Below, piece after piece: positions 7,915 through 27,415 of a stretch of DNA of 33,754 nucleotides. Made by a program: the position numbers and the translations under genes. The notes under the pieces were generated by a model that worked only from the letters and a program-made list of their open reading frames with translations, searched no databases and was not told where the DNA came from. The DNA comes from Gemmatimonadales bacterium (GTDB lineage Bacteria; Gemmatimonadota; Gemmatimonadetes; Longimicrobiales; Gaopeijiaceae), in NCBI GenBank assembly GCA_007695195.1, contig REEG01000077.1:1-33754 (forward strand). Direction: 5' to 3'. Every line of letters begins with the position of its first letter. Position 1 is the stretch's first letter.

Positions 7915-8828
7915 GTGCTGAGAAGGAGACGCAGATCATCGCCATCTACGGAAAGGGCGGCATCGGGAAGAGTTTCACCCTGGCCAACCTCTCCTACATG
8001 ATGGCCCAGCAGGGCAAGAAGGTCCTCCTCATCGGATGTGACCCGAAGTCCGACACCACGAGTCTCCTCTTCGGCGGTCGGGCCTGCCCGACCATCATCG
8101 CCACCTCGTCGGAAAAACGGATCGCCGGGGAGGAAGTGGCCATCTCCGATGTCTGCTTCACCCGGGACGGTGTCTTCGCCATGGAGCTCGGCGGCCCGGA
8201 AGTGGGTCGAGGATGTGGAGGCCGGGGCATCATCCACGGCTTCGAGCTCCTGGAGAAGCTGGGCTTCCACGACTGGGGGTTCGACTTCGTCCTCCTGGAC
8301 TTCCTGGGCGACGTGGTGTGCGGTGGCTTCGGTCTCCCCATCGCCCGGGACATGTGCCAGAAGGTCATCGTGGTGGGGTCCAACGACCTGCAGTCGCTCT
8401 ACGTGGCCAACAATGTCTGCTCCGCGGTGGAGTACTTCCGCACCATGGGCGGCAACGTGGGTGTGGCCGGGCTGGTCATCAACAAGGATGACGGCACCGG
8501 TGAGGCCCACGCCTTCGCCGAGAAGGTGGGGATCCCGGTGCTGGCGGCCATCCCGCAGCACGACGACATCCGCCGCAAGAGTGGCAACTACGAGATCGTC
8601 GGGACGCCGGGGGGACGGTGGGCACCGGTGTTCGAGGAGCTGGCACAAGGGGTGGCCGAAGCGCCGCCGCTGCAGCCCAACACCCTCACCCACGATGAGT
8701 TGCTGGACCTCTTCAAGGGCGAGGACGTGGGCCGGGATGTGATCCTGACCCCGGCCACGCCGGAAGAGATGATGAGCGCCGATGCGCTCGAGCGGGAATC
8801 GCTGGAAATCGTCTACGAGACTGCTTGA
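7911..8828 (+). CDS. bchX: Chlorophyllide a reductase iron protein (BchX)
   Basis: BchX is the NifH-like homodimeric ATPase that passes electrons to BchYZ, which reduces ring B of chlorophyllide a to the bacteriochlorin. The 305-residue protein carries the P-loop GKGGIGKS (14-21), switch residues in CDPKSDTT, and the two conserved cysteines that bridge a [4Fe-4S] cluster, C102 in GRGCGGRG and C137 in DVVCGGFG. ATG at 7911 overlaps the bchC stop, with GGAGG just upstream. It is shorter than many proteobacterial BchX proteins because it lacks their N-terminal extension. The frame that stays open for 800 bases upstream overlaps bchC and is not coding. BchL is excluded by context and by the following bchY and bchZ. 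Confidence 0.95.
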   Translation: MSAEKETQIIAIYGKGGIGKSFTLANLSYMMAQQGKKVLLIGCDPKSDTTSLLFGGRACPTIIATSSEKRIAGEEVAISDVCFTRDGVFAMELGGPEVGRGCGGRGIIHGFELLEKLGFHDWGFDFVLLDFLGDVVCGGFGLPIARDMCQKVIVVGSNDLQSLYVANNVCSAVEYFRTMGGNVGVAGLVINKDDGTGEAHAFAEKVGIPVLAAIPQHDDIRRKSGNYEIVGTPGGRWAPVFEELAQGVAEAPPLQPNTLTHDELLDLFKGEDVGRDVILTPATPEEMMSADALERESLEIVYETA

Positions 8829-8845
8829 TGGAGACCAGGAGACCC

Positions 8846-10555
8846 ATGTCCACCACCGAATCCACCACCGAACCGCGCCGCCGGAAGCTGCCGGTCGTGA
8901 CCGGAGGCTCCGCTCAGGAGCCCGCCGGACCCGACCTGGCCGCCGCCGTGGAGGCCGGGGCCCCATCGCCCAACGGCGCCGGGTGCCATGGTGGGTCGGA
9001 GCGTCTCCGGGCGGCCGCGAAGACGGGAGAGTCCGGCAAGGTGCTGGAAGAGTTGGTGAAGGACTATCCGCTGGGGCCCCACGACAAGCCCCAGGGGATG
9101 TGCCCGGCCTTCGGGTCGCTGCGGGTGGGACTCCGCATGCGGCGGACCGCCACCATCCTCTCCGGATCGGCGTGCTGCGTCTACGGGCTCTCCTTCACCT
9201 CCCACTTCTATGGAGCCCGGCGCACGGTGGGATACGTGCCCTTCAACTCCGAGACGCTGGTGACCGGCGCCCTGTTCGAGCATGTGAAGCAGGCGGTGCA
9301 CGACCTGGCCGATCCTGAGAAGTATGACGCCATCATCATGACGAACCTCTGCGTTCCCACCGCATCCGGGGTGCCTCTGGATCTCCTTCCAAAGGAGATC
9401 AACGGGGTCCGGATCATCGGGATCGACGTGCCGGGGTTCGGCGTCCCCACCCACGCCGAGGCCAAGGATGTCCTTTCGGGGGCCATCCTCCGCTACGCCC
9501 GCAAGGAAGCGGAGCGGGGCCCGGTGGCGCGACCGAAGGATCTGGTGAAGGATCGGCCCACGGTCACCCTTCTGGGAGAGCTCTTCCCGGCAGATCCCAT
9601 GGGGATCGACGCCCTCCTGAGGCCCTTGGGGGCCACGGTGGGCACCACGGTTCCGACCCGGGAGTGGCGCGAGCTCTACAAGGCGCTGGATGCCCCGGTG
9701 GTGGCGGCGGTGCACCCCTTCTATGTGCGAGCGGTCCGGGAATTCGAGCGTGCCGGTCGCACGGTCGTCCCCTCCGGACCGGTGGGAGCCGACGGGACCG
9801 CAGCGTGGCTCGCCGCCGTCGGTGAAGTCCTGGGTACCCCCGCCGATGTTCTCGGCGCGGCGGTGGATCAGGCCGTGGGAGCCACCCGGAGTGCCCTGTC
9901 CGCACAGCGGATCGATGGGCGCATCGTGGTTTCCGGTTACGAGGGTTCCGAGCTCCTGGTGGCCCGACTCCTGACGGAGGCGGGCGCCGAGGTCCCCTAT
10001 GTGGGGACCGCCCTTCCCCGGTCCAAGTGGAGCGATCCGGACCGGGAGTGGCTGGAGGCACGGGGCACCCACGTGCAGTACCGGGCGTCGCTGGAGCAGG
10101 ACCTGGCGGCCTCCAAGGATGTGAATCCCGACCTGGTTCTGGGGACGACGCCGGTGGTGCAGGCGTCCAAGGAGGCCGGGACCCCGGCCCTCTACTTCAC
10201 GAACCTCATCTCGGCACGGCCCATCTTCGGGCCGGCCGGCGCCGGTGGGATCGCCGAGGTCATCGGCGGGGCTATCGGGGGTCGGGAACGGCTGAACCGG
10301 ATGCGGGCCTTCTTCGCCGGCGTCGGGACGGGTCACACGGCCGGATATGGTCACGACGGGGTTCCCGAGGAGCGCCTCAGTGCGCGTCAGCGGAACGCCC
10401 GGGCCAGGGGCGGCAAGGCATCAACAGGTCAACGGAAGGGGGCGGAGACACCGACGGCCAAGGCCGCCGGCGGAGAGCCGACGCCTTCCGCTGAAGCCGG
10501 CGAGGGCACCGGACGCACGTCCGAGCCCCCCCGGAAGGACCAGGAGGTCGCCTGA
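8846..10555 (+). CDS. bchY: Chlorophyllide a reductase subunit Y (BchY)
   Basis: BchY and BchZ form the NifDK-like catalytic component of chlorophyllide a reductase. The 569-residue protein shows the BchY cysteines that would bind the [4Fe-4S] cluster: C86 in [11 protein letters not shown]110/C111 in [16 protein letters not shown], and C169 in [10 protein letters not shown]. The last 55-60 residues are a low-complexity, charged and probably disordered tail, and the first 45 residues are also low-complexity; the protein is therefore longer than usual (about 490-520). I chose ATG at 8846 because AGGAGA lies just upstream; ATG at 8828, overlapping the bchX stop as TGATG, is an equal alternative and would add six residues. 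Its stop overlaps the bchZ start (TGATG). Confidence 0.93.
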
Positions 10556-18257: not shown

Positions 18258-19616
18258 TCAATCCCTGGGCGGCACCGGAGTCACTTCCGTGACGAAGGGT
18301 GCCAGAGCCTCTTCCAGGGTGGGCCGTCCCAGCACCTGCAGATCGTAACGGATTCGGGTGTGTGGGACGGGAATATCCAGCAGACGTGAGATGTCGATGG
18401 GTGTGCCAACGGCCACCGCCTCCACACCTCCCTCCCGGCAAGCGGTCTCCAGCGTCGCCTGCAGATCCCGGATCTGGGCCTCCCCGTATCCCATGGCCGG
18501 AAGGGCGGCCGAAATGTGGGGGTAGGCGCGAAAGGTCTCCTTGAGCGCGCCGTGGGCGAAGGGGCGGGGATCCACCAACTCCTTGGCGCCGGCCCGTCGG
18601 GCGCCGAGCCACCCGGCGCCGTGGGGCATCCCGCCATGGGTCAGGGTGGGACCGTCTTCCAGCGCCAGGACCCGCCGGCTCCGGAGGATCTCCGGATCGT
18701 CCGGCACCGGGGGGGATGCGGCTTCCAGGATGACGGTGTCCGGCCGCACCCGGCGAATGGTCTCCCGTACGGCGAAGACCTGTTCCGGGTGTGCCGAGTC
18801 CACCTTGTTCACCACCACCACCTGGGCCACGCGCAGGTTCGTCTCACCGGGGTGGTAGCGGACCTCATCGCCGGCGCGGTGTGGATCCACGACACAGATG
18901 GTGAGTTGGCTGGCCAGGAAGGAGGTGTCGTTGTTTCCCCCGTCCCAGAGAAGAACATCGGCTTCGGCCTCGGCGGCTCGTACGATACGCGCGTAGTCCA
19001 CACCGGCCCACACGATACTCCCCGCCTCCAGATGGGGCTCGTACTCTTCCCGCTCCTCAATGGTCACCTGGTGACGGTCCAGGTCGTCGGCATGGGCGAA
19101 GCGTTGGACCGCCTGGGCCTCCAGGTCTCCGTAGGGCATAGGGTGCCGGAGGATCCCCACCCGTATCCCCAGGCTCCGGAGGTGGGCCGCCACCGCCCGC
19201 GCCGTCTGGCTCTTCCCGGCTCCTGTCCGGGATGCCACTACGGATACCGAGGGAAGCCACGACCGGACCTGGGTGCGGCGAGTGCCCAGAAGCGCGAAGT
19301 CGGCCCTGGCCGCATTCACCCGGCTGGCCAGATGCATGACCTCCTCGTGGGAGATGTCCGAGTACGCCATGACGCACCGTTCCACCTCGAACTCGGCGAT
19401 GAGGCTCTCCAATTCACTCTCCGGGTGGATGGGGATGCCGTCGGGGTAGAGAGGGCCGGCGAGGGCAGGGGGATAGCGCCGATTCGTGATGTTGGGGATC
19501 TGCTGGGCCGTGAAGGCCACTACCTCGCTGCCATCGTCTTCCCGGAAGACCATGTTGAAGTTGTGGAAGTCTCGTCCGGCGGCGCCGAGGATCAGGGTGC
19601 GGATGCGACTGGCCAT
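18258..19616 (-). CDS. CpgS-like GTPase (cyclic 2,3-diphosphoglycerate synthetase family)
   Basis: The 452-residue protein resembles cyclic 2,3-diphosphoglycerate synthetase and related P-loop NTPases. It starts with a Rossmann-like segment, RTLILGAAGRDFHNFN. A P-loop SRTGAGKSQ lies at about 129-137, with LLWDGGNNDTSF as the Walker B region and VVVNKVD as a G4-like motif. In methanogens the enzyme makes a cyclic phosphoglycerate used as a thermoprotectant and reserve; bacterial homologues are mostly uncharacterised, so the substrate here is open. The ATG at 19616 is preceded by GGAGA at good spacing. It converges on puhE and has no visible link to photosynthesis. The C-terminal third carries no motif that I recognise. 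Confidence 0.7.
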   Translation of the reverse strand: MASRIRTLILGAAGRDFHNFNMVFREDDGSEVVAFTAQQIPNITNRRYPPALAGPLYPDGIPIHPESELESLIAEFEVERCVMAYSDISHEEVMHLASRVNAARADFALLGTRRTQVRSWLPSVSVVASRTGAGKSQTARAVAAHLRSLGIRVGILRHPMPYGDLEAQAVQRFAHADDLDRHQVTIEEREEYEPHLEAGSIVWAGVDYARIVRAAEAEADVLLWDGGNNDTSFLASQLTICVVDPHRAGDEVRYHPGETNLRVAQVVVVNKVDSAHPEQVFAVRETIRRVRPDTVILEAASPPVPDDPEILRSRRVLALEDGPTLTHGGMPHGAGWLGARRAGAKELVDPRPFAHGALKETFRAYPHISAALPAMGYGEAQIRDLQATLETACREGGVEAVAVGTPIDISRLLDIPVPHTRIRYDLQVLGRPTLEEALAPFVTEVTPVPPRD

Positions 19617-21131: not shown

Positions 21132-22363
21132 GTCCCCAGGCGGGTCGACACCTTCACGCCACTCTCCAGGGAGCGGTGGACGGGGCAGCGGTCCGCGATC
21201 TGGAGTAGCCGCTCGCGCTGCTCGTCATCCAGGGGGCCGTGCAGGACCAACTCCCGTTCCAGATGGTCGGTGCGAGGATCGGCGTCGGGGTCCCGGGGGC
21301 GTCGCTTCTGCTTGGTGTGGTCCAGGTGGACCTCCACATCTTCCAGGGGCCACCCCTTCCGGTCGGCGTACATGCGCAGCGTGATGGTGGTGCAGCTGCC
21401 CAGCGCCGCCGCCAGGAGTTCGTAGGGGGTGGGGCCGGTGTCATCGCCGCCCAACGAGACCGGTTCGTCGGCTCGGAGCGCGTGACTCCGGGCCGCGATG
21501 CGGGTCCGGTACCCCGTGGCTCCGGTCTGTACCCGGACCCGCCGGTCTTCGGTCTGTACCTCATCACCCGGCTCTGCCTTCGCCTCCGCCGCCCCCGCCG
21601 CCTCCACGAGGTACCGGCCGGCCCAGGCGGCCAGCACGGAGCCCACGTAGAGCGAGTCCTCCTCCCGCATGAGGAGGTGGTCCGCATGGTCCAGCGAAAC
21701 GAAGCTCTTGGGGTGGCGGGCCGCCTGATAGATCCGGGCGGCGTTGTCGATCCCCACCACCTGATCCGTCGGGGAGTGGAAGATCAGGAGCGGGCGGCGG
21801 AGTTCGCCCAGGATCGCCTCCATGTTCCGGCCTTCCAGATCCTTCAGGAAGTCGCTTCGGATGGTGAAGCTGCGTCCGGCGATACTGACCTGGGCATCGC
21901 CCTCTTCCTGGATCGTCTCCAGCGACCCCTCGAAGAGCCCCTTCACGTGCTCCGGGTCGAAGGGAGAGCCGATGGTGGCCACGGCCCGGACCTTGGGGAG
22001 CTGAGCGGCGGCCTGGATGACGGCGGCCCCCCCCAGGGAATGGCCGATGAGCACCGATGGGCTGTGCCACTCTTCTTCCATGTACCGGGCTGCGGCCAGG
22101 AGGTCGTCCACATTGGACGAGAAGTCCGTGTCCGCGAAGTCCCCGTCGCTCTCGCCAAGTCCGGTGAAGTCGAAGCGGAGGACGGCGAAGCCCCGCTGGG
22201 TGAGCGCCCGGCTGATGTTCACCGCCGGCTTCAGATCCTTGGAGCAGGTGAAGCAGTGAGCGAAGAGGGCGCAGGCGCGGGGCTCACCGACCTCAGGGAG
22301 GCTCAGGCGAGCGGTGAGGTTATGACCGAGGGCGCCGGGGAAGGTGACCGGAAGATTCTTCAT
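21116..22363 (-). CDS. Bifunctional alpha/beta hydrolase / OsmC-family peroxidase fusion
   Basis: The 415-residue protein joins two domains. Residues 1-255 are an alpha/beta hydrolase with LFAHCFTC, FDFTGLGESDGDF, the nucleophile elbow IGHSLGG (S109), D200 in HSPTDQVVG and H226/H229 in LDHADHL. Residues about 265-415 are an OsmC/Ohr-like domain with GPTPYELLAAALGSCTTITLRMYA (C324 at its end) and C393 in ADRCPVHRSLE, the pair expected for thiol-based reduction of organic hydroperoxides. This fusion is known in several phyla. The ATG at 22363 lacks a clear ribosome-binding site; longer starts add only low-complexity sequence. The 3' end overlaps the porin-like gene by 16 bases. A role in oxidative stress is plausible for an oxygen-exposed phototroph. 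Confidence 0.85.
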   Translation of the reverse strand: MKNLPVTFPGALGHNLTARLSLPEVGEPRACALFAHCFTCSKDLKPAVNISRALTQRGFAVLRFDFTGLGESDGDFADTDFSSNVDDLLAAARYMEEEWHSPSVLIGHSLGGAAVIQAAAQLPKVRAVATIGSPFDPEHVKGLFEGSLETIQEEGDAQVSIAGRSFTIRSDFLKDLEGRNMEAILGELRRPLLIFHSPTDQVVGIDNAARIYQAARHPKSFVSLDHADHLLMREEDSLYVGSVLAAWAGRYLVEAAGAAEAKAEPGDEVQTEDRRVRVQTGATGYRTRIAARSHALRADEPVSLGGDDTGPTPYELLAAALGSCTTITLRMYADRKGWPLEDVEVHLDHTKQKRRPRDPDADPRTDHLERELVLHGPLDDEQRERLLQIADRCPVHRSLESGVKVSTRLGTQKTT

Positions 22364-22661
22364 GGAATGGGAGGCGGTGGAATGGGAGGGGCAGGCTTTG
22401 GGGATGGCGGGGGGAGGTTGCCGCCGAGTGGTTCCTGGTCCGGAACCACCCGGTTCCAAAGATGGCCAGGGCTCTCCTTCACTTCCAGGGCAGGATGCCC
22501 TTGATGCGGTTTCACGTTACTCTTGAGCCGTGCCGGATCGAGCGCGCTCCGAGGCACCGGAGAGTGCCGCCGGCCCCGGGTCCCATCCTGGGACGGCGCT
22601 CACAGACAGCTCTTGGTCACGTCCGGCCTGCCTTCAACGTCCCCGCCGCTACGGCACCCCT
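22364..22661. other. Divergent intergenic region, no clear signals
   Basis: This 298-bp spacer lies between the hydrolase-OsmC gene (minus) and the type III polyketide synthase gene (plus). I see no convincing promoter, repeat or RNA gene. The polyketide synthase frame is open from 22530, so part of this could be an N-terminal extension. Confidence 0.35.
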
Positions 22662-23774
22662 ATGCCCGTCTTTCTCCACGGACTCACCACTGCAGTGCCG
22701 GAACCCGAGTACGATCAGGGGTGGACCTGTGATCTGGTGCAGGAGCACGCCACCGAGCGGCGCGGGGTCCGCAGGATCATCCGGAGCATCTACCGGAATT
22801 CGGGGATTCGGAAGCGCCACAGCGTCATCGACGACTGGAGCGACACCGTCCGGGACCCCCTCTTCTTCGACTCGGAGGGGCAGCTCCGTCCCACGCCCGG
22901 CACCGCCCGTCGCAATGAGGTCTACACCCGTGAGGCACGGCGTCTCTTCGTGGATCTGGCACGGAAGCTGGTGCGGGACACCCCGGGGTTTACGGCGTCC
23001 GACGTCACCCACGTGATCACGGTGTCATGTACCGGATTCTTCGCGCCGGGTCCCGACTACCATGTGGTGCGCGCCCTTGGCCTCCCTGGGACCACGCAGC
23101 GTTACCATGTGGGGTTCATGGGGTGCTACGCCGCATTCCAGGGGCTTCGGATGGCCCACGCCTTCTGCCGCAGCGATCCGGAGGCGGTTGTGCTGGTCCT
23201 GAGCGTGGAACTCTGTACCCTGCATCTCAAGTTCACAGAGGATACGGATGAGCTCATCGCCGGAGCGGTCTTCGCCGACGGAGGCGCCGGAGCCCTGGTG
23301 AGTGCACGGGAACCACACCCGGGCGCCGCAGGCCCCGCCGTGGAACTCGAGTCGTTCCACACCGCCCTCACCGAGGAAGGAGAGGAGGATATGGCCTGGA
23401 CCATCGGGGACCAGGGATTCCGGATGCGGCTCTCCACCTACGTTCCCGAGATCATCCGGACCAATCTGGCCCCGGTTCTGACAGATCTCCTGGGGCGTAG
23501 CGGGGTGGAGGCGTCCGAGGTGGATCATTTCGCCATCCATCCCGGCGGTCGAGCCATCCTGGACAAGGTTGAGGCCACCCTGGGGATGGCCGAAGGGGGC
23601 CTCCTGGCCTCTCGCCGCGTGTTGCAGGAATTCGGGAATATGAGCAGTGCCACCATTCTCTTCGTGCTGGACGAGCTCCTTCGAGGCGGCGGGGTCCAAT
23701 CGGGAGATCGGATCCTGGCCATGGCCTTCGGGCCCGGGCTCACCATTGAATCGGGCCTCTTCCGGGCCCCCTGA
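22662..23774 (+). CDS. Type III polyketide synthase (chalcone/stilbene synthase-like)
   Basis: Type III polyketide synthases extend an acyl-CoA starter with malonyl-CoA and cyclise it, giving for example alkylresorcinols, alkylpyrones or phloroglucinols. The 370-residue protein has the catalytic triad: C155 in HVGFMGCYAAFQGLR, H293 in FAIHPGGRAIL and N326 in FGNMSSATILFVL. VITVSCTGFFAPGPDY and FGPGLTIESGLF (residues about 356-367) also fit. ATG at 22662 starts the homologous part but has no ribosome-binding site; a GTG at 22530 would add 44 low-complexity residues. It starts 23 bp upstream of sbtA on the same strand. The product cannot be read from sequence. No companion tailoring enzyme (such as a methyltransferase) follows. 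Confidence 0.9.
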   Translation: MPVFLHGLTTAVPEPEYDQGWTCDLVQEHATERRGVRRIIRSIYRNSGIRKRHSVIDDWSDTVRDPLFFDSEGQLRPTPGTARRNEVYTREARRLFVDLARKLVRDTPGFTASDVTHVITVSCTGFFAPGPDYHVVRALGLPGTTQRYHVGFMGCYAAFQGLRMAHAFCRSDPEAVVLVLSVELCTLHLKFTEDTDELIAGAVFADGGAGALVSAREPHPGAAGPAVELESFHTALTEEGEEDMAWTIGDQGFRMRLSTYVPEIIRTNLAPVLTDLLGRSGVEASEVDHFAIHPGGRAILDKVEATLGMAEGGLLASRRVLQEFGNMSSATILFVLDELLRGGGVQSGDRILAMAFGPGLTIESGLFRAP

Positions 23775-23797
23775 CCGCAACGCCCCGTCCACGAACC

Positions 23798-24790
23798 ATG
23801 GCCGAGATCCTCGCCACCAACCTCCTCTCGCCGGTGGTCCTGGCCTTCGCCCTCGGGGCGCTGGCCACCCTGGTCAAGAGCGACCTGGAGTTTCCCGAGC
23901 CCCTCTACCAGGCGCTCTCCATCTACCTGCTCCTGGCCATCGGGCTGAAGGGAGGGGCGGCGCTGGCCGTCACCCCCATGTCCGTGGTCTGGGCGCCGGC
24001 GGCCATGACCCTCTTCCTGGGCGCGCTGACCCCCGTGACGGCCTTCGTCATTCTCCGGTACGTGGGGAAGATGGACCGGATCAACGCCGGAGCCCTGGCC
24101 GCCCACTACGGATCGGTCTCGGCGGTAACCTTCCTGGCGGCCATCGCCTTTGCCGAAGCCACGGGAGCGCCGGCCGAGGGGTTCATGCCGGCCCTGGTGG
24201 CCCTCCTGGAAGTCCCGGCCATCGGGGTGGGGCTCCTTCTGGCCCGCATGGGGGCCAGATCCTCCACCGATGCTCCCACCAAGGACCCCCAGGGCACGCC
24301 CACCTGGGTGCTGGCCGCCCATGAGGTCCTCACCGGGCGGAGCATCGTGCTGCTGGTTGGGGGACTTCTCATCGGATGGATCTCCGGTCCGGCCCGGATG
24401 GCGGAGGTGGAGCCCTTCTTCACCGCCATCTTCCCTGGCGTCCTCAGCCTCTTTCTCCTGGAGATGGGGCTGGTGGCGGCGCGGCGACTGCGGGACCTGA
24501 GGGAGACCGGCGTCTTCCTGGTGCTGTTCGGCACGCTGGTTCCGGTGCTCCACGGTGCACTGGGAGTATGGGGAGGCACGGTGGCCGGACTGTCGGTGAG
24601 CGGCGCAGCCGTTTTCGGGACCCTGGTGGCTTCCGCTTCCTACATTGCCGCTCCTGCCGCCGTGCGGGTGGCGCTCCCGGAAGCAAAGCCCAGCCTGTAC
24701 CTTACGGCATCCCTGGGGATCACCTTCCCATTCAATCTGGTGTTTGGGATCCCCATCTTCTTCGCCATGGCTCGCTTCATCGGAGGGTGA
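23798..24790 (+). CDS. sbtA: SbtA-type sodium-dependent bicarbonate transporter
   Basis: SbtA proteins import bicarbonate with Na+ across the inner membrane. The 330-residue protein has about ten hydrophobic segments in two inverted halves. Family wording includes LSPVVLAFALGALATLVKSDL at the start, YLLLAIGLKGG, INAGALAAHYGSVSAVTFLAA (the conserved SVS substrate-site segment) and ITFPFNLVFGIPI near the end. The soluble loop in the middle (about 148-170) matches the site where the partner SbtB docks. The gene sits directly before an sbtB-like gene (1 bp gap), which supports the call. There is no strong ribosome-binding site. No carbon-fixation gene is visible in the window, so its job may be anaplerotic supply. 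Confidence 0.88.
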   Translation: MAEILATNLLSPVVLAFALGALATLVKSDLEFPEPLYQALSIYLLLAIGLKGGAALAVTPMSVVWAPAAMTLFLGALTPVTAFVILRYVGKMDRINAGALAAHYGSVSAVTFLAAIAFAEATGAPAEGFMPALVALLEVPAIGVGLLLARMGARSSTDAPTKDPQGTPTWVLAAHEVLTGRSIVLLVGGLLIGWISGPARMAEVEPFFTAIFPGVLSLFLLEMGLVAARRLRDLRETGVFLVLFGTLVPVLHGALGVWGGTVAGLSVSGAAVFGTLVASASYIAAPAAVRVALPEAKPSLYLTASLGITFPFNLVFGIPIFFAMARFIGG

Positions 24791-24791
24791 C

Positions 24792-25103
24792 GTGGAGACC
24801 CGGGAAATGACATTGGTCACAATCGTCGCCGAGCGGCTCCTGAAGAAGCGGGTGCTGGAAGGGATCCGGTCGGTGGGCGCCAGGGGCTGGACCCTCACCG
24901 ATGTGACGGGGGAAGGGGACCACCGGATCTCGGCCCACGAGTGGGAGGGGCCCAGCGTGAAGGTGGAGACCCTGGTCACCGACGAGGTGGCCAGGAAGAT
25001 CCTGGAGCTGGTCTCGGGCCGGTACTTCGAACATCACGCCGTCATTGTATTCACGAGCCCTGTCCGGGTGATCCGGGGAGAGAAATTCAGGGACCGATCA
25101 TGA
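24792..25103 (+). CDS. sbtB: SbtB-like PII signalling protein
   Basis: SbtB is a trimeric PII-like protein that binds adenine nucleotides, including cAMP and AMP in cyanobacteria, and gates SbtA. The 103-residue protein has a PII fold layout: a first strand MTLVTIVAERLLKKRV, a helix, a T-loop region near DVTGEGDHRISAHEWEG, VKVETLVTDEVARKIL and a last strand HHAVIVFTSPVRVI. It lacks the C-terminal CGPxGC redox loop seen in many cyanobacterial SbtB proteins. I chose GTG at 24792 because GGAGGG (24782-24787) sits four bases upstream and one base follows the sbtA stop; an ATG five codons on is possible. The stop overlaps the next gene (ATGA), so three genes are co-translated. Confidence 0.82.
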   Translation: METREMTLVTIVAERLLKKRVLEGIRSVGARGWTLTDVTGEGDHRISAHEWEGPSVKVETLVTDEVARKILELVSGRYFEHHAVIVFTSPVRVIRGEKFRDRS

Positions 25104-25681
25104 GACCGCAACGCACACGGCCCATCCATGCACCATCCTGGTTCGGACTTCCCATCGTCCTATCTCTACTGATCCTGGGAGCGGCCCCGGGGCTCTCCGC
25201 CCAGACTCCCGGCGGGTTGGACTCGGGAGCCCGTTCCCTCTCCTTCGGCATCGACGGCAGTGGAACCGCCGAGGCAGGGATCTGGTTCTTCGTCACCGAC
25301 CGGACCAACCTGGGGCTCCTCGGATCACTCAACTGGTTCTCCGAGGACCGCAGGAACGACGACGATCGCTCCGGCCTGAGCCTGACCCTCGGCCCCAGGG
25401 CCAAGTGGTATCTGGCTTCGGTGGGGTCCACCGCTCCCTTCTGGTACGGCGGGCTCGACTTCGGCCACGTCCGCGATTCCCGGGAGGGGCGGGACGATCG
25501 CACCGGTCGGGTGCTGGGGCTGGAGGCAGGGTTCGGGGTGGACTGGTTCCCACTGGACCGTGTTTCCCTGGGGGGATGGACGGGGGTGCGGCTCCAGGAT
25601 GAGCGCTTCCCCTCCGACGACACACGGACCCGCCTCGATACCTTCACCACCGGCCTGCGCGTCCACCTCTACTTCTTCTGA
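25100..25681 (+). CDS. Small outer-membrane beta-barrel protein of unknown function
   Basis: The 193-residue protein has a signal peptide (hydrophobic stretch about residues 17-35, ending LSAQ). The mature part is an eight-strand-like barrel of the OmpA/OprF-beta-brl or OMP_b-brl type, with alternating hydrophobic residues and a terminal aromatic pair (VHLYFF). The ATG overlaps the sbtB stop. Its place at the end of an sbtAB operon suggests common expression, but I cannot name a function. A strong hairpin follows the stop. Confidence 0.7.
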   Translation: MRPQRTRPIHAPSWFGLPIVLSLLILGAAPGLSAQTPGGLDSGARSLSFGIDGSGTAEAGIWFFVTDRTNLGLLGSLNWFSEDRRNDDDRSGLSLTLGPRAKWYLASVGSTAPFWYGGLDFGHVRDSREGRDDRTGRVLGLEAGFGVDWFPLDRVSLGGWTGVRLQDERFPSDDTRTRLDTFTTGLRVHLYFF

Positions 25682-25687
25682 TTCTCC

Positions 25688-25714
25688 TGAGGCGGCGGGC
25701 ACGCCGCTGCCTCA
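25688..25714. terminator. Hairpin between the sbt operon and pruA (convergent)
   Basis: TGAGGCGGCGG (25688-25698) pairs with CCGCTGCCTCA (25704-25714) over 11 bp with one G-T wobble and a five-base loop. It starts seven bases after the barrel-protein stop and lies about 60 bp past the end of pruA. It lacks a T-tract and is symmetric enough to act on both strands. Confidence 0.6.
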
Positions 25715-25774
25715 CCGCAACGCGGCGCCCCGCAGAAGCCGGACCCGACGGACTTCCGGAGGCGCCCCGCAGCC

Positions 25775-27415
25775 TCACTCCTCCATGTGCGGGTAGCGCC
25801 AGTCCACAGCGGGTACGAAGGTCTCCTTGATGGCCCGGGGGCTGGTCCAGCGCAGCAGGTTGAAGATGGACCCCGCCTTGTCGTTGGTTCCGGAGGCCCT
25901 GGCACCACCGAAGGGCTGCTGGCCCACCACCGCTCCGGTGGGCTTGTCGTTGATGTAGAAGTTGCCGGCGGCATTGCGGAGCAGCTCTTCGGCCTGCCGG
26001 ATGGCGCGTCGATCCCGCGCCCACACTGCACCGGTGAGTCCATAGGGGCTGGTGCCGTCCACCAGCTCCAGCGTCGAACGCCAGTTGGCGTCGGCGCCTG
26101 ACGAATCGTCGTAGACGTAGACGGTGAGGATGGGGCCGAAGAGCTCCCGCACCATGGTATCCGAGGCCGGATTCTCCGTTCGCAGTATGGTGGGCTCCAC
26201 GAACCATCCGTCGGTGTCGTCGGTGCCTCCGCCCACCACCACCTTGGCTCCATCCGAGCGCGCCTGCTCGATGGCTTCCCGGTGGGTCCGGAAGGCCGAT
26301 CCGTCGATGACCGCCCCCATGAAGGTGGAGAGGTCACCAACATCGCCCATGGTGAGTTCCTCGGTCATGGCTATGACCCGTTCCCGCAGGCGGGCCCACA
26401 TGGACTGGGGGATGTAGGCCCGGGACGCGGCGGAGCACTTCTGCCCCTGGTATTCGAAGGCTCCCCGTACCATGGCCACCGCCAGCGGCTCCAGCTCCGC
26501 CGAGGGGTGGGCCACGATGAAGTCCTTCCCCCCGGTCTCACCCACGATGCGGGGGAAGTTCCGGTACCGCTGCAGGTTCTCACCGGTGGTCCGCCACATG
26601 GACCGCAGCACGTCGGACGAGCCGGTGAAGTGGAGGCCGGCGAAGGACTCGTGGGCCAGGCAGACTTCGGCGGTGAGGGGGCCCGGGCCGTTCACCAGAT
26701 TGATCACCCCGTCCGGCAGGCCGGCCTTCCGGAAGATCTCCATGGTGTAATGGGCCGCCAGGGCCTGCTTCTGGGAGGGCTTCCAGACCACCACATTGCC
26801 CATGAGCGCCGGCGCCGACGGCAGATTTCCGGCGATGGCCGTGAAGTTGAAGGGGGTGATGGCCAGGATGAAGCCTTCCAGGGGCCGATAGTCCAGTCGA
26901 TTCCAGACGCCCTCGGGGGAGTCGGGTTGCTCTTCCAGGATCCGACGGGCGAAGTGGACGTTGAATCGGAGAAAGTCGGCCAACTCGCACACCGCGTCGA
27001 TCTCGGTCTGGTAGACGGACTTGGATTGACCGAGGATGGTGGCGGCGTTGAGGGTGTGCCGGTAGGGTCCGGTGATGAGATCGGCAGCCTTGAGGAAGAT
27101 GGCCGCCCGCTCCTGGAACGGCGTGGCAGCCCACTCCCTGGCCGCCGCCTCGGCCGTTTCGATGGCCAACCCGATGTGCCCCCGCCCGGCGGTGTGCACA
27201 CGCGCCAACTCCCGGCTGTGGTTATGGGGCGAGACCTGGGTGAAGGTGCCTTCCCCCTTGACCTCCCGGCCGCCGATCTGGAGCGGGATCTCCAGGGTTT
27301 CCTTCTCCATCTCCCGGACACGGGCGCGAAGGCCGCTGCGTTCGGGGGATCCGGGCGCGTAGGCCAGGATGGGCTCGTTCCGGGGGGCAGGGGGAGGAGG
27401 GAAGCCGTCGCTCAT
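25775..27415 (-). CDS. pruA: L-glutamate gamma-semialdehyde (1-pyrroline-5-carboxylate) dehydrogenase
   Basis: This NAD-dependent aldehyde dehydrogenase makes glutamate from glutamate semialdehyde, the second step of proline breakdown. The 546-residue length and wording fit the stand-alone ALDH4A1-type enzyme: ILAITPFNFTAIAGNLP, FTGSSDVLRSMW, the general base E293 in IVGETGGKDF, the nucleophile C327 in FEYQGQKCSAASRAYIP, and the C-terminal QQPFGGARASGTNDKAG. I chose ATG at 27415 with AAGGAG eight bases upstream; a GTG three codons earlier overlaps that site. No proline dehydrogenase (putA/prodh) gene is next to it. It lies 128 bp downstream of the lipoprotein gene on the same strand. Confidence 0.93.
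   Translation of the reverse strand: MSDGFPPPPAPRNEPILAYAPGSPERSGLRARVREMEKETLEIPLQIGGREVKGEGTFTQVSPHNHSRELARVHTAGRGHIGLAIETAEAAAREWAATPFQERAAIFLKAADLITGPYRHTLNAATILGQSKSVYQTEIDAVCELADFLRFNVHFARRILEEQPDSPEGVWNRLDYRPLEGFILAITPFNFTAIAGNLPSAPALMGNVVVWKPSQKQALAAHYTMEIFRKAGLPDGVINLVNGPGPLTAEVCLAHESFAGLHFTGSSDVLRSMWRTTGENLQRYRNFPRIVGETGGKDFIVAHPSAELEPLAVAMVRGAFEYQGQKCSAASRAYIPQSMWARLRERVIAMTEELTMGDVGDLSTFMGAVIDGSAFRTHREAIEQARSDGAKVVVGGGTDDTDGWFVEPTILRTENPASDTMVRELFGPILTVYVYDDSSGADANWRSTLELVDGTSPYGLTGAVWARDRRAIRQAEELLRNAAGNFYINDKPTGAVVGQQPFGGARASGTNDKAGSIFNLLRWTSPRAIKETFVPAVDWRYPHMEE

Follow-up and report, generated by a model that had tools for sequence, protein, structure and literature searches.

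An SbtA-SbtB-like gene pair as a probable inorganic-carbon importer near a photosynthesis gene cluster in a Gemmatimonadales genome

The window analysed here is a stretch of 33,754 nucleotides that corresponds to contig REEG01000077.1 (C26) of the Gemmatimonadales bacterium assembly GCA_007695195.1 (family Gaopeijiaceae; 3.92 Mb in 306 contigs, completeness 96.4%). Its first half contains a photosynthesis cluster that includes genes of a type 2 reaction centre, and downstream of this cluster the forward strand carries two adjacent genes that resemble the cyanobacterial pair sbtA-sbtB. The first (23798-24790) encodes a protein of 330 amino acids resembling Na+-dependent (bi)carbonate symporters (PF05982), and the second (24792-25103) a PII-like protein (PF00543, E 1.9e-18) of 103 amino acids when read from GTG 24792, or of 98 when read from ATG 24807. 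The two genes are 1 bp apart, as had been stated in an earlier reading of the window made from its sequence alone (hereafter the sequence-only reading), if the GTG start is used; in favour of this start are a GGAGGG a short distance ahead of it and almost the same junction in the relative L018. The pair (23798-25103) is taken, on balance, to be a Na+-coupled importer of inorganic carbon, most likely bicarbonate, with its PII-like regulator, in a probable photoautotroph. The sequences themselves show the protein families, the predicted fold, the pairing of the genes, the gap that corresponds to the pair in two sister genomes, and the presence of Calvin-cycle genes in this genome.

SbtA matches PF05982 over residues 12-325 (E 1.9e-113), a domain match that takes in the whole protein. 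An AlphaFold model built from 10 sequences (predicted local distance difference test score 84) was similar to the Synechocystis SbtA structures 7egl, 7cyf, 8zor, 7egk and 7cye, with template modelling scores of 0.85-0.90 by query length (8zor being, according to its title, a deposited structure of SbtA with a T-loop-truncated SbtB). Gene order, the PF05982 and P-II families and the predicted fold are shared with Slr1512-Slr1513 of Synechocystis PCC 6803 (7cye, 7cyf, 7egl), whereas the identity to Slr1512 is about 26%. Regarding the substrate site, for which residue roles were taken from PMC8352866, the bicarbonate contacts S114 and S324 of Slr1512 are retained as S108 and S281, and the S322 Na+ position is also kept. 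Judged by its residues, the window SbtA is not a plain cyanobacterial SbtA and belongs to the SASYIA subtype (S-A-S-Y-I-A), which is found in many phyla. No NCBIfam match was obtained for SbtA, for SbtB or for the possible barrel protein encoded downstream of them.

SbtA relatives were found in 13 of 121 genomes of the family and in 18 of 154 genomes of the order. Loci with an SbtA at least 45% identical to that of the window are called window-type; there are 26 including the window, of which L024-L026 are nearly identical, and their flanks are unequal in length (at most 1.5 kb for some). SbtB follows SbtA in 23 of the 26, the exceptions being L012, L032 and L033, the last of which ends at a contig edge. 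In the tree the window SbtA forms a clade with L017 and L018 (support 100/99), and L019 from the Longimicrobiaceae stands next with weaker support (88/82). SbtAs of cyanobacterial type occur in the genomes G045, G046 and G101; they keep Y140 and S327 of Slr1512 and group with that protein (support 100/100, long stem). In these three genomes, all positive for puf (loci L015, L016 and L014, respectively), an SbtA with the site S/Y/S/S is followed by an SbtB with a long T-loop, and two of the three also carry a window-type SbtA. The genome of the window has a second SbtA (37%) of another subtype on contig C137 (L085, 272-2160), directly downstream of an NhaR-like LysR gene and with no SbtB match at that locus; a similar LysR-SbtA pair lies on contig C64 of G083 (LysR 77% identical).

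The gene adjoining sbtA encodes a P-II fold protein whose best match in sequence (PDB search, E 6e-25) and in fold is TTHA0516 of Thermus thermophilus (2cz4), cyanobacterial SbtBs being found at 1e-7 or weaker. The identity to TTHA0516 is 45-48%, the T-loops are of equal length and WEG is common to both, whereas the T-loop is five residues shorter than in cyanobacterial SbtBs, Slr1513 included. The arginines R43 and R46 of the RxxR clamp are replaced by H39 and S42 (numbering of the 98-residue form). Among the other window-type SbtBs, R43 is present in 22 of 22 and R46 in 14 of 22 (replaced in 8); the window is not alone in having lost R43, since the three cyanobacterial-type SbtBs of the family carry H and K at the two positions. 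Neither CGPxGC nor a C-terminal cysteine was seen in any of 26 aligned rows (the window SbtB and 25 relatives), which extends to the relatives what the sequence-only reading had noted for the window protein; CGPxGC is conserved in only some SbtBs (PMC8352866). In Synechocystis SbtB, according to passages of PMC10117731, R43 and R46 hold phosphates, and mutating either of them or the R-loop cysteines abolishes ATP/ADP hydrolysis. An SbtB without the R-loop still binds nucleotides, and that of Cyanobium naturally lacks this loop (passages of PMC10991534). Because of the shorter T-loop, the missing redox loop and the missing RxxR clamp, the window SbtB is expected to lack the ATP/ADP-hydrolysing switch of the Synechocystis protein, which supports the earlier suggestion that its signalling may differ.

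The genome has two PF00016 matches, namely a form I ribulose-1,5-bisphosphate carboxylase/oxygenase (RuBisCO; E 8e-136) and a RuBisCO-like protein at the end of contig C70 (L035; E 2e-51). At the form I locus PRK, cbbL, cbbS and cbbX stand in a row, so that large and small subunit are accompanied by the activase CbbX; CbbX and PRK score above their NCBIfam cut-offs. The best structure matches of the large subunit were 25hn, 1bxn and 5nv3, the latter two of which we take to be red-type form IC. Misbinning of this 44-kb contig is unlikely because 14 of its 26 called open reading frames are collinear with contig C215 of the same-genus genome G068 (cbb proteins 82-88% identical) and the GC is similar (0.661 versus 0.673). 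A beta carbonic anhydrase is encoded on contig C212; it has no twin-arginine pattern and is thus probably cytosolic. The carboxysome (bacterial microcompartment) shell protein PF00936 was found in 0 of 19 genomes including that of the window, the controls E. coli and S. elongatus being positive, which points to inorganic-carbon uptake and not to a full carbon-concentrating mechanism. From this gene content the organism probably lives as a photoautotroph and does so without carboxysomes. Some PF00016 match is present in 26 of the 121 family genomes, and form I RuBisCO (E ~1e-135) in five, all of them puf-positive; on contig C235 of G045 (L091-L092) cbbL, cbbS, cbbX and prk lie beside pufC, pufM and pufL, and a second puf set of this genome lies on contig C38.

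These searches for RuBisCO and carbonic anhydrase, which the sequence-only reading had proposed, contradict its premise that phototrophs of this kind lack the Calvin cycle, since form I RuBisCO, CbbS, CbbX and PRK are all encoded. Of the standard carbon-concentrating role that it had named as the opposing possibility, the RuBisCO is present, while no carboxysome shell protein was found and relatives of the pair also occur in genomes without form I RuBisCO. The sequence-only reading thus recognized a real pair but misjudged its metabolic setting. Soda lakes are a published source of phototrophic Gemmatimonadota that have form IC RuBisCO, according to passages of PMC6748926 (see also the available parts of PMC8547001 and PMC10581226); the metagenome-assembled genome (MAG) Ge1 described in the first of these resembles the genome of the window in having puf together with form IC rbcS-rbcL-prk, and differs in that SbtA is unmentioned in the text available from that paper. 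The term SbtA is likewise absent from the available passages of the other two, and nothing was found in the open-licence literature that pairs SbtA with Gemmatimonad*.

The pair is flanked by two genes on the same strand. Upstream, separated from sbtA by the 23 bp given in the sequence-only reading, is a type III polyketide synthase (PKS) gene (22662-23774; PF02797/PF00195), whose product has both the N- and the C-terminal chalcone/stilbene synthase domains; its best PDB match is pks18 (1ted, E 1.3e-46) and its best NCBIfam match, DpgA, is far under the cut-off. Downstream, a gene for a small exported, possibly beta-barrel protein (25100-25681) overlaps the stop of sbtB with its ATG as ATGA, again as previously described. 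The identity of this product as an outer-membrane barrel was not borne out, the evidence being a sub-threshold match to the MipA profile (20.0 bits, cut-off 24.2) and a signal-peptide-like N-terminus read by eye. A hairpin of 11 pairs (25688-25714, forward strand) lies between the barrel gene and a convergent aldehyde dehydrogenase gene downstream. It exists as reported, but not with the strength ascribed to it: its z value is -1.39, 14 of 200 shuffles were equally stable, a T-run is missing and it is absent from the terminators that the scan listed. A sigma-70-like promoter was not found in 22300-26000.

PKS orthologues (63-74% identity) are present in nine other genomes of the family, six of which have no SbtA match, while in G075, G083 and G086 PKS and SbtA lie on separate contigs; no sbtA or sbtB match was found in the examined PKS flanks of the relatives. 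Orthologues of the barrel protein (60-68%) occur in the same-genus genomes G066, G067 and G068, all without an SbtA match, and are linked to PKS and aldehyde dehydrogenase genes in G067 and G068. The order in G067 is OsmC/hydrolase, DoxX-like (named by resemblance to its G068 counterpart), PKS, a minus-strand CARDB-domain gene, barrel and aldehyde dehydrogenase, and that in G068 is DoxX, PKS, a minus-strand gene without Pfam match, barrel and aldehyde dehydrogenase. In the window, sbtAB occupies the PKS-barrel gap that is filled in these two genomes by one opposite-strand gene. SbtA was not found in any of the four other same-genus genomes (MAGs, completeness 61-95%). The analysis bears out the four genes and their spacing, yet to judge from the compared sequences they are no conserved unit: of the four-gene order put forward earlier, the sbtA-sbtB linkage is kept in relatives, where the two travel together, and the linkage to PKS and barrel is not. 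In the same terms the pair is a two-gene cassette whose neighbours on either side, the PKS and the barrel gene, are older. Its gain in the lineage of the window is the economical reading, the alternative being loss in the sister genomes. Both neighbours are judged to stand outside the transport system and look like bystanders, so that the pair probably serves inorganic-carbon uptake. A gene for a distant homologue of the barrel protein (~39%) and one for a beta carbonic anhydrase converge on contig C13 of G075 (L124/L149).

The photosynthesis cluster contains Mg-chelatase-like, nitrogenase-type reductase, two reaction-centre and reaction-centre cytochrome genes, and profile matches together with these genes confirm that an SbtA/SbtB-like pair lies near such a cluster. 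The relatives gave no sign of a conserved nearness: each of the six other puf-positive genomes that carry SbtA (G045, G046, G062, G075, G083 and G101) has its sbtA and its puf genes on different contigs. Since many contigs of those genomes are short, the nearness is unsupported rather than excluded. The PKS and puf genes of G068 are also on separate contigs (C239 and C245, ~94 kb each). Beside the cluster, a minus-strand gene (18258-19616) encodes a GTPase-like protein that matches CobW only marginally (21.3 bits, cut-off 20.7) and in which we presume a resemblance to cyclic 2,3-diphosphoglycerate synthetase.

Regarding the surroundings of the relatives, a beta carbonic anhydrase gene is directly adjacent in 9 of the 26 window-type loci (match edges 7-186 bp apart), an NhaR-like LysR gene lies within about 1 kb of the module in 13, and 14 have one or both of these neighbours. 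The strict pattern RRxF[hydrophobic] occurs in three of the nine adjacent anhydrases (L031, L152, L153), the five of L023-L027 read as twin-arginine by eye, and that of L032 is fragmentary. NhaR was the best NCBIfam match, under the cut-off, of the two LysR proteins tested. At L029 a further carbonic anhydrase match, farther off and outside the nine counted, lies beyond sbtAB and LysR in a longer open frame (8326-10323); the upstream part of this frame has what we take to be the look of a SulP-type permease, which would make it a possible transporter-anhydrase fusion. Among 72,556 plasmid records 18 match SbtA. Six plasmid relatives were inspected, of which two cyanobacterial ones are of the Slr1512 type and those of Arthrobacter, Anoxybacillus, Aureimonas and Cereibacter have S-A-S-Y-I-A (43-49% identity; NCBI label 'sodium-dependent bicarbonate transport family permease'). 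An SbtB-like gene adjoins the Arthrobacter relative; no PII-like gene is annotated beside the relative in the other three. On the Cereibacter sphaeroides plasmid CP031752.1 (L159) the relative (43%) lies beside LysR, the large and small subunits of form I RuBisCO and CbbQ. C. sphaeroides is a purple phototroph, and two more Cereibacter plasmid records match.

If the pair works as proposed, the Na+ gradient would drive bicarbonate import through SbtA, conversion to CO2 would fall to the beta carbonic anhydrase of contig C212, and fixation to form I RuBisCO, powered by the type 2 reaction centre; other carboxylases may also draw on the bicarbonate. SbtB probably binds the cytoplasmic side of SbtA and senses an adenyl nucleotide, presumably without the hydrolytic switch of its Synechocystis counterpart.

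Several observations weigh against this interpretation, and part of them would be accommodated by a general bicarbonate importer of heterotrophs, used in anaplerosis or pH balance, which mainly feeds carboxylases, as the sequence-only reading had suggested, though without a link to the PKS, and whose host here is a phototroph with RuBisCO by chance; this is regarded as unlikely, with a real chance of being right. Window-type sbtAB is also present in 7 of the 116 family genomes that lack form I RuBisCO, and relatives are found in Planctomycetota, Myxococcota, Actinomycetota and Bacillota. G044 bears a 76% relative although it lacks puf and, of RuBisCO, shows no more than a weak RuBisCO-like match, and conversely G068 and G078 carry RuBisCO and puf yet no SbtA match. 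No carbon-fixation gene was seen within 3 kb of the Arthrobacter, Anoxybacillus and Aureimonas plasmid relatives, and the clade of the window (window, L017, L018 and L019) has no carbonic anhydrase or LysR match in the examined flanks. Against chance stand the Calvin-cycle set of the genome itself, a large carbon sink if used, the RuBisCO adjoining the Cereibacter relative, and the enrichment of sbtAB in RuBisCO and puf genomes, the tests of which ignore kinship and draw on absences that come from MAGs and are therefore soft. In the family, SbtA of any type was present in 7 of 11 puf-positive versus 6 of 110 puf-negative genomes (p 7e-6; by genus 6/7 versus 2/33), and window-type sbtAB in 5 of 11 versus 5 of 110 (p 5e-4) and in 3 of 5 form I RuBisCO genomes versus the 7 of 116 others (p 0.004). 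In the order, SbtA of any type was present in 7 of 11 versus 11 of 143 (p 2e-5; by genus 6/7 versus 6/54, p 1e-4).

The substrate site weighs against bicarbonate import as well. The contacts Y140 and S327 of Slr1512 are V134 and A284 in the window SbtA, for which reason it was classed as SbtA-like and not as SbtA1; position 140 is V, L or M in 26 of 26 window-type rows and position 327 is A in all 25 readable ones, and changing either residue of Slr1512 to Ala lowers transport to 10-40% (PMC8352866). With two of the four bicarbonate contacts replaced in all readable window-type rows and in the four non-cyanobacterial plasmid relatives, SASYIA-type proteins might move another small anion, e.g. 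formate, or act in export, and would then be PF05982 members without being bicarbonate importers. In passages of PMC12093963 the putative Sbt-type transporter SO_3758 of Shewanella, whose site is S268-A269-S270-Y271-I272-A273, is tied to formate tolerance, its authors favouring efflux; these passages contain no transport measurement. As substrate and direction are unproven for this protein with the same six residues, both are given as inferred for the window SbtA. Such a change of substrate or direction is less likely still, because a beta carbonic anhydrase is adjacent in 9 of the 26 window-type loci, RuBisCO lies beside the Cereibacter relative and the PII-like partner is conserved as in SbtAB. 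Very improbable is a true four-gene operon that couples bicarbonate import to polyketide output via malonyl-CoA, as the sequence-only reading had envisaged: the common strand and the close spacing (23 bp, 1 bp, ATGA) speak for it, and the lack of PKS-sbtA linkage in the nine other genomes with a PKS orthologue, the opposite-strand gene in the interval of G067 and G068 and the unassigned PKS product speak against it. The coupling to the PKS was rejected on linkage and synteny.

Inorganic-carbon import by sbtAB, the interpretation preferred here, may be part of a wider picture. A second cyanobacterial SbtA family with its own PII-like partner, SbtA2-SbtB2, is described in passages of the review PMC13249358, with bicarbonate uptake by SbtA2 in E. 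coli (Km ~150 uM) and chloride dependence, and a genomic survey likewise divides SbtA into SbtA1 and SbtA2 (passages of PMC9477826). The Leptolyngbya protein called SbtA2 in the available part of PMC10536570 has conserved substrate residues, which do not fit the subtype of the window. The open-licence literature yielded nothing that names TTHA0516, nothing on a sodium-dependent bicarbonate transporter with carbonic anhydrase in Planctomycet*, and nothing on Sbt with dissolved inorganic carbon, PII and carboxysome in Thiomicrospira. It is tentatively suggested, at less than even confidence, that SASYIA SbtAs and PII proteins with a short T-loop and no clamp form a separate uptake system in at least six phyla (Gemmatimonadota, Planctomycetota, Myxococcota, Actinomycetota, Bacillota and Pseudomonadota), with or without RuBisCO. 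Compared with SbtA1-SbtB its substrate site would be remodelled and its regulator simpler; it would often come with an NhaR-like regulator and a beta carbonic anhydrase that is exported, and would in a few Gemmatimonadota be coupled to light-driven Calvin-cycle growth without carboxysomes. If the SASYIA branch is the published SbtA2-SbtB2 family, the pair of the window adds one more ordinary member to that family. A branch whose substrate site differs and whose PII partner is simpler would offer a natural comparison for the essential features of SbtAB, and for photoautotrophic Gemmatimonadota the pair would provide a testable entry point of inorganic carbon.

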